From Lutjanus erythropterus (Eukaryota > Chordata > Actinopteri > Lutjaniformes > Lutjanidae): DNA of 64,000 bases. The stretch lies in the NCBI GenBank assembly GCA_020091685.1, contig CM034597.1:28508388-28572387 (forward strand), given 5' to 3'. Under the pieces are notes generated by a model, which ran no database searches, was not told the DNA's origin, and saw only the letters and a list, made by a program, of their open reading frames with translations. Shown here piece by piece: positions 2,828 to 37,436 of this stretch. Each line of letters opens with the position of its first letter. The first letter of the stretch is position 1. The translations under genes and the position numbers were made by a program.

Positions 2828-2987
2828 ATGCTGAGCTCATTTTTACTGTTGCTGCTGTGCTGGGTCCAAGCCTTTCTGTTCGTGGTGAAACCAGACCGTC
2901 TGCCTCAGGAAGTGAGCACACCACTGAAGTGTTATCTCCATCCTGAAGCAAAGGATCATGGGAAGGCCAGGGGACATGTGAGGAAAG
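2828..2987 (+). CDS. collagen exon 1: signal peptide and N-terminus
   Basis: The ATG at 2828 opens [16 protein letters not shown], a hydrophobic signal peptide with likely cleavage after about residue 15-18, followed by a Lys/Asp-rich stretch. The donor is AAAG|gtaagc and the exon ends in phase 1. Joining to exon 2 regenerates a Glu codon (HVRK-E-VDLLQ), which supports both boundaries. No in-frame upstream ATG is better placed. Confidence 0.85.

Positions 2988-37436: not shown

Follow-up and report, generated by a model that had tools for sequence, protein, structure and literature searches.

The window, a 64,000-nucleotide stretch of DNA at C7:28508388-28572387, holds a fibrillar collagen gene at positions 2828-37436 of the plus strand. 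We rebuilt the gene from splice signals, independently of the exon list of a first-pass annotation, and obtained a model of 67 exons and 2001 codons that opens with the first ATG at 2828, closes with a stop codon ending at 37436 and has no internal stop. In this model 65 donors are GT and one is GC (gcaagt at 30919, after exon 51 at 30865-30918), and all 66 acceptors are AG; the weakest join is that of exon 62 to exon 63 (donor gttggt, acceptor gatgag), and the 18-bp exon 60 and the 51-bp exon 45 were identified by eye in the sequence. The first-pass annotation had described an intact chain of 68 exons joined in phase; the single frame of 2001 codons without a stop and the complete splice dinucleotides bear out the intact, open chain, and the exon count is revised to 67. 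A scan of the window for Gly-X-Y runs of at least five triplets returned 50, all of them on the plus strand. The features of the gene are as follows.

2828-2987, plus strand: exon 1, start codon, signal peptide (assigned by eye) and linker
4456-4600, plus strand: exon 2, first TSPN exon; homologue at C18:7377260 (43% identity, E 0.009)
5277-5441, plus strand: exon 3, TSPN
6440-6635, plus strand: exon 4, TSPN (WHSLSLSV...LFLDC); homologues at C18:7380104 and C9:38848445
9661-9759, plus strand: exon 5, end of TSPN
11567-11947, plus strand: exon 6, first part of the variable domain
12707-13546, plus strand: exon 7, variable domain, 840 bp
14286-14339, plus strand: exon 8, initial six triplets of the minor helix
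15198-15317, plus strand: exon 9, 120 bp, eight triplets of the minor helix, then NC2
15916-35097, plus strand: exons 10 to 62 (part), three NC2 residues, then the major helix (15925-35097)
29004-29054, plus strand: exon 45, 51 bp rather than 54, one-residue deletion (GPSTPG)
34067-34084, plus strand: exon 60, 18-bp helical exon (GQMGQK)
35098-35250, plus strand: rest of exon 62, basic C-telopeptide and linker (RSSRRRGS...EEQQK)
35389-35482, plus strand: exon 63, start of COLFI with Cys1 and without Cys2; weak acceptor gatgag
35583-35689, plus strand: exon 64, COLFI, Cys3 to Cys5
36137-36217, plus strand: exon 65, COLFI, 81 bp (e2b)
36318-36527, plus strand: exon 66, COLFI, without Cys6 and Cys7
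37284-37436, plus strand: exon 67, end of COLFI with Cys8, stop codon

Rfam gave no match in the window at gathering scores, the phage collection likewise gave no match, and no direct or inverted repeats of at least 30 bases were found within 2700-15200. Intron 1 contains a zinc-finger fragment (3871-4116, PF18658, E 1.1e-5, below the cut-off of that family), of a type that we take to be the kind found in hAT-type transposon genes.

The N-terminal half of the predicted chain combines a TSPN domain, a variable domain and a minor helix. Among chains of solved structure, the TSPN encoded by exons 2-5 matched COL9A1 NC4 (2uur, E 1.8e-5) and NEL and NELL2 (E 0.0009), with thrombospondin 1 as a weak match (E 0.6). 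A 196-aa TSPN piece reached E 1.7e-4 and 22.5 bits with Pfam Laminin_G_2, slightly below the cut-off of 22.9, and the whole 662-aa N-terminal part matched no Pfam family at E 0.001. The variable domain (exons 6-7) is acidic (pI 4.2) and has five Tyr among 407 residues. It is followed by a minor helix of 14 triplets (aa 663-704, exons 8-9) and by an NC2 of 19 residues (aa 705-723), the last three of which are encoded by exon 10. A minor helix and a TSPN split over several exons, both noted in the first-pass annotation, are thus present.

The major helix comprises 1013 residues, with 333 triplets carrying Gly, in exons of 54, 45 and 108 bp that start with Gly, so that a nearly uninterrupted Gly-X-Y helix of about 1000 residues is encoded. 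The earlier figure of 1013 was reproduced exactly by our independent model. Breaks in the register consist of Gly to Ala at aa 781, 979 and 1524, Gly to Glu at aa 1620 and a missing residue at 1429 (GPSTPG); the motif KGH occurs in the helix at position 282 only, and the terminal GPP run is lost. At the C terminus, Pfam COLFI (PF01410) was matched at E 5.2e-32 and 111.4 bits against a cut-off of 26.2, confirming by profile search the fibrillar-collagen propeptide proposed earlier. By alignment this propeptide keeps cysteines 1, 3, 4, 5 and 8 and has lost C2, C6 and C7. The proposal that most functional landmarks are altered therefore holds for the cysteines (five of eight kept), the KGH site, Gly (four substitutions) and the Tyr content of the variable domain. 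The lost Cys6 and Cys7, the four Gly substitutions and the missing terminal GPP run could reflect relaxed constraint.

To place the gene we searched its own genome (938 Mb, 444 contigs) with the PF01410 profile and found at least 64 exon-level places, which sort into at least 19 COLFI loci as selected from the search output; the size of this genome, its at least 24 large contigs and its duplicated collagen set suggest a teleost. All comparisons of collagen genes below are within this one genome, and the gene names behind the loci of clades A to C are those we assume for them. The 19 C-propeptide rows were assembled by hand from frame translations and the exons found: the first 17 residues of the window row derive from exon 62, the e2b exon is missing from the row of B_C3, a clade B gene, and the clade C rows may miss residues at joins. 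In the 19-locus tree the window gene grouped with loci at C9:38.77M and C18:7.45M (98.9 SH-aLRT, 100 UFBoot), referred to below as its sisters, and under LG+C20 the same three genes, which we call D, were united at 100 UFBoot and 99 SH-aLRT. Clade B (six genes, 97.7/89) and clade C (three genes, 99.9/100) were recovered in the first tree, in which clade A (seven genes) did not fall on one side of a branch; support under LG+C20 was 99/98 for A, 72/71 for B and 100/100 for C. Forcing the window gene to join B, C or A cost 17.9, 16.5 and 19.4 log-likelihood units under LG+C20, and the AU test rejected all three placements (p-AU 0.0058 with B, 0.0121 with C, 0.004 with A). The branch of the window row is long (1.51), and joins of such rows may be false, according to a warning issued by the program.

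Similarity rankings gave a mixed picture of these relationships. Exon-by-exon searches with the window C-propeptide, whose matches fall mostly in the conserved Cys3-Cys5 exon, ranked first among non-self matches the C7:38.38M gene of clade C (E 2.9e-9), ahead of the clade B gene C13 and the clade A genes C2 and C19, with the C9 sister fifth (6.8e-8) and the C18 sister far lower (0.0013); the ranking by single exons, as a sequence comparison, does not show the D group. In the TSPN search, where matches were assigned to genes by position (for the sisters, by position and strand), the sisters were the best matches after the window and its partial copies (E 2.8e-7, 7.2e-5 and 0.009), followed by clade C (0.02, 0.17) and clade B (0.14, 0.22).

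The exon structure of the three genes is shared to a high degree. We read 52 exons in each sister, and of the 51 exons from 9 to 59, 50 have identical lengths in all three genes, the exception being exon 45 (51 versus 54 bp). The sister-exon scan favours Gly-starting exons of the usual lengths and so leans towards agreement; the order of the 45s, 54s and 108s is not helped by this bias. Beyond exon 59 the window gene has exons of 18 and 63 bp where the sisters have one of 54 bp. Exon 9 measures 120 bp in all three genes and encodes a similar NC2, one of them reading TLYLWRNSEEDWIAFR. An e2b exon lies between e2 and e3 of the C-propeptide in all three D genes, at 81 bp, and in five of the six clade B genes, at 69 bp; it was found neither in the sixth clade B gene (B_C3) nor in the three clade C genes. 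The D genes are thus marked by common exon lengths, a 120-bp exon joining minor helix and NC2, and the 81-bp e2b exon.

Where they were read, that is, in the second minor-helix exon, the helix and the C-propeptide, the sisters are open. Their helices count 1008 residues each, with the final 12 residues of both appended by hand; the C9 sister carries two Gly substitutions (GFKGDGAPLGEK, GANGPRESKGEK), and in the C18 sister there were no Gly breaks in the 996 residues read. By alignment the C18 sister has all eight propeptide cysteines save Cys3, and the C9 sister all save Cys2 and Cys3. An apparent gcaagt donor follows the helix-end exon of the C18 sister. In both sisters (L040 on C18, L039 on C9) the first minor-helix exon, of 45 bp, opens with a Cys triplet (GCPGEPG... 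and GCAGREG...) that the window gene does not have; an interchain disulfide at this triplet is possible.

The window helix has 144 Lys and Arg against 69 Asp and Glu in 1004 residues, a net +7.5 per 100 aa, compared with +0.7 for the C18 sister and +3.9 for the C9 sister. Of 14 other loci sampled, 13 lay between -3.1 and +4.3 per 100 aa, mostly from short 3' pieces, and L023 gave +9.3 from 54 aa only; the survey was counted exon by exon and left out L010 and L025, which have too few exons. Because the window helix is unusually basic, its composition suggests, as a hint, that it may bind polyanions such as sulphated polysaccharides. Among the three D members, the window gene has diverged most.

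The first-pass annotation had proposed an additional ohnologue of the COL5/COL11 set. The multi-exon TSPN, the minor helix and an e2b exon as in clades A and B would be accounted for if the gene were a strongly diverged orthologue within clade B or one more ohnologue of COL5/COL11; D with B is moreover the best topology under LG+C20 (79/74), and the C13 exon of clade B outranks the sisters in the C-propeptide exon search. Against this, the tree joins the window gene to its two sisters (100/99) and its placement with clade B is rejected, as is one with the B_C19b/B_C3 pair (p-AU 0.0023). None of the six clade B loci detected in the genome groups with the window gene. These six loci already make up the number expected in a teleost, where the clade B set comprises col5a1, col5a3a/b, col11a1a/b and col11a2. 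The 3' helical exon series of C13, the one clade B gene read in this respect (3' half), also differs from the 54-bp run of D. As tested on these sequences, the window gene would therefore lie outside clade B, and we regard a clade B origin as unlikely; the COL5/COL11 proposal was not supported, although D as a whole may still lie next to clade B, and the companion notion of a gene lost in mammals may be right.

A derived clade C gene of col24a1 or col27a1 type that had retained the ancestral minor helix would fit the maximum-likelihood topology of the first tree, D with C (20/56), an arrangement that the AU test did not reject (p-AU 0.26; B with C without D, 0.254, was likewise not rejected). 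The C-propeptide exon search has a clade C gene as its top non-self match, D shares a 108-54-108 exon series with the one clade C gene read, and the helix is shorter than 1014 residues in both. The rest of the 3' helical series of that gene differs from D, and the window gene taken alone with clade C is rejected (p-AU 0.0121). Clade C is described, in the accessible parts of two papers, as having no minor helix and a helix of 997 residues (PMC2794549, PMC2852846), and the window gene shows neither trait. The TSPN occupies several exons in the window gene, while most of it is matched by one open frame in each of two clade C genes (474 and 551 codons), and e2b was absent from the three clade C genes as searched. 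The earlier judgement that the minor helix and multi-exon TSPN mark no ordinary clade C gene is upheld, and we consider this derivation improbable. For the window gene, a plain orthologue of clade B or of clade C was rejected by the AU tests.

Selection on the helix was assessed against the C18 sister, leaving out exon 45 for its difference in length. Gly was kept at 316 of 320 places, as against 144 matching residues at 640 X and Y places, and Gly codons agreed at 100% of first, 98.8% of second and 29.4% of third positions. Simulated neutral sequence of the same length acquired a mean of 24 stops at 0.1 substitutions per site, and the actual gene has none. Taken together, the retained Gly, the third-position change and the stop simulation argue, judged from sequence, that selection for collagen function has maintained the helix over most of the time that it has existed. 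The loss of three of eight propeptide cysteines and of several Gly, the long branch and the weak splice sites (exon 62 to 63) might speak for a D-gene copy decaying as a pseudogene; this reading is very improbable and was set aside on the intact frame of 2001 codons without stop or frameshift, the complete splice dinucleotides and the Gly conservation (316 of 320 despite wide change at X, Y and third positions).

Because trees unite the three genes and reject A, B and C for the window gene, and because exon structure, NC2 and the 81-bp exon are shared, we consider it likely that the window gene is functional and encodes a minor fibrillar procollagen chain belonging to a fourth lineage, D, standing beside vertebrate clades A, B and C.

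The chromosomal setting bears on the age of this lineage. Downstream of the collagen gene, on the same strand, lie soat1 exons (42545-46925, with a weak MBOAT match), two joined pieces of which matched SOAT1 (E 4.7e-35) ahead of SOAT2 (E 1.8e-20). ABL-type F-actin-binding domains were found at C7:28.59M, about 17 kb past the window, and at C18:17.72M; torsins at C7:28.65M, C18:22.79M (two), C18:32.89M and C9:12.56M; and PRRC2-type genes at C7:10.96M, C17:22.55M and C18:28.78M. SOAT1, ABL2 and TOR3A form a block on human 1q25, and ABL1, TOR1A, COL5A1 and COL27A1 lie on human 9q; which of the fish domains is ABL1 and which ABL2 is our assumption. From chromosome-level linkage and the human positions, the window gene would sit on a 1q-type chromosome and its sisters on 9q-type chromosomes, which fits 2R ohnology of the window gene and the sister pair; they are probably 2R ohnologues, with the C9 and C18 genes later teleost duplicates.

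COL5A1, COL11A1, COL11A2 and COL5A3 already make up the four members that 2R would give clade B. Since that set is complete and clade C has its own pair, we infer, from the same positions and linkage, that D would go back beyond 2R as one more lineage of TSPN collagens. On this basis we put forward tentatively, at somewhat less than an even chance, a pre-2R fourth clade that was lost in mammals but persisted, as two or more 2R ohnologues, in ray-finned fishes, of which the unplaced hagfish and ascidian chains may be further survivors and whose chains co-assemble as a type not seen before; the ohnologues would be the soat1-linked gene and a gene of the col27a1 chromosome, the latter duplicated again in teleosts.

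Partial copies of the 5' end of the gene (window 2828-6635) lie on minus strands at C17:16270287-16272848, with exons 1-4, and at C9:38417095-38419490, with exons 1 and 4 and a broken piece of 2-3. The C17 copy shares about 95% of aligned intron bases and 95-98% of exons 2-4 with the window gene; the copy on C9 and the sister gene of that chromosome are about 350 kb apart. No copies of exons 5-7 or of the C-propeptide were seen elsewhere in the genome.

In a chain of lineage D, the C-propeptide would trimerise the chain in the endoplasmic reticulum, the rod would be deposited within thin collagen fibrils or on their surface, and the N-terminal domain, by analogy with types V and XI, would sit at the fibril surface and limit growth or bind matrix molecules. 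D chains would more likely form heterotrimers together, or trimers without interchain disulfides, than disulfide-bonded homotrimers, because the window chain has Cys3 without Cys2, the C18 chain Cys2 without Cys3 and the C9 chain neither. Beyond the pairing given in the cited passages, the pairing of cysteines is our assumption. Helix lengths of 1013 and 1008 residues speak against easy mixed trimers.

The accessible sections of a review and of a lamprey survey recognise three fibrillar clades (A, B and C) whose definition is based on human genes. In its accessible part, the lamprey study places all thirteen lamprey genes in known subfamilies and reports that the second clade C homologue of hagfish falls outside the two gnathostome genes and may be an ancient homologue (PMC8887668); the accessible part of another paper likewise distinguishes three clades and describes a clade C-related ascidian chain whose imperfections are numerous (PMC2852846). 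The openly available literature searched contained in its accessible text no description of a fourth vertebrate fibrillar clade or of a D gene; a D gene may already stand in fish protein databases under a '-like' name. If the fourth lineage is real, it would change the count of fibrillar collagens at the vertebrate root, could house the unplaced cyclostome and ascidian chains, and would point to a type of fish collagen absent from mammal-based lists. The window gene is also a natural example of a fibrillar collagen tolerating several Gly substitutions together with a strongly basic helix.

Like clade B (COL5A1, COL5A3, COL11A1, COL11A2), D has a multi-exon TSPN, a variable domain, a minor helix, NC2 and an e2b segment; unlike clade B, it forms a separate branch in the C-propeptide tree and has an 81-bp rather than a 69-bp e2b exon, and the window variable domain is Tyr-poor and mostly in one 840-bp exon, unlike what we take to be the clade B arrangement. 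Like clade C (COL24A1, COL27A1), D shows a TSPN, fast evolution, Gly imperfections and a helix shorter than 1014 residues; unlike clade C, it has a minor helix, an e2b segment and split TSPN exons. The unplaced chains, namely the second hagfish clade C homologue (PMC8887668) and the 906-ascidian chain (PMC2852846), lie in or near clade C and outside the named orthologue groups in the accessible text of these papers; likened by description only, they are possible relatives of D.
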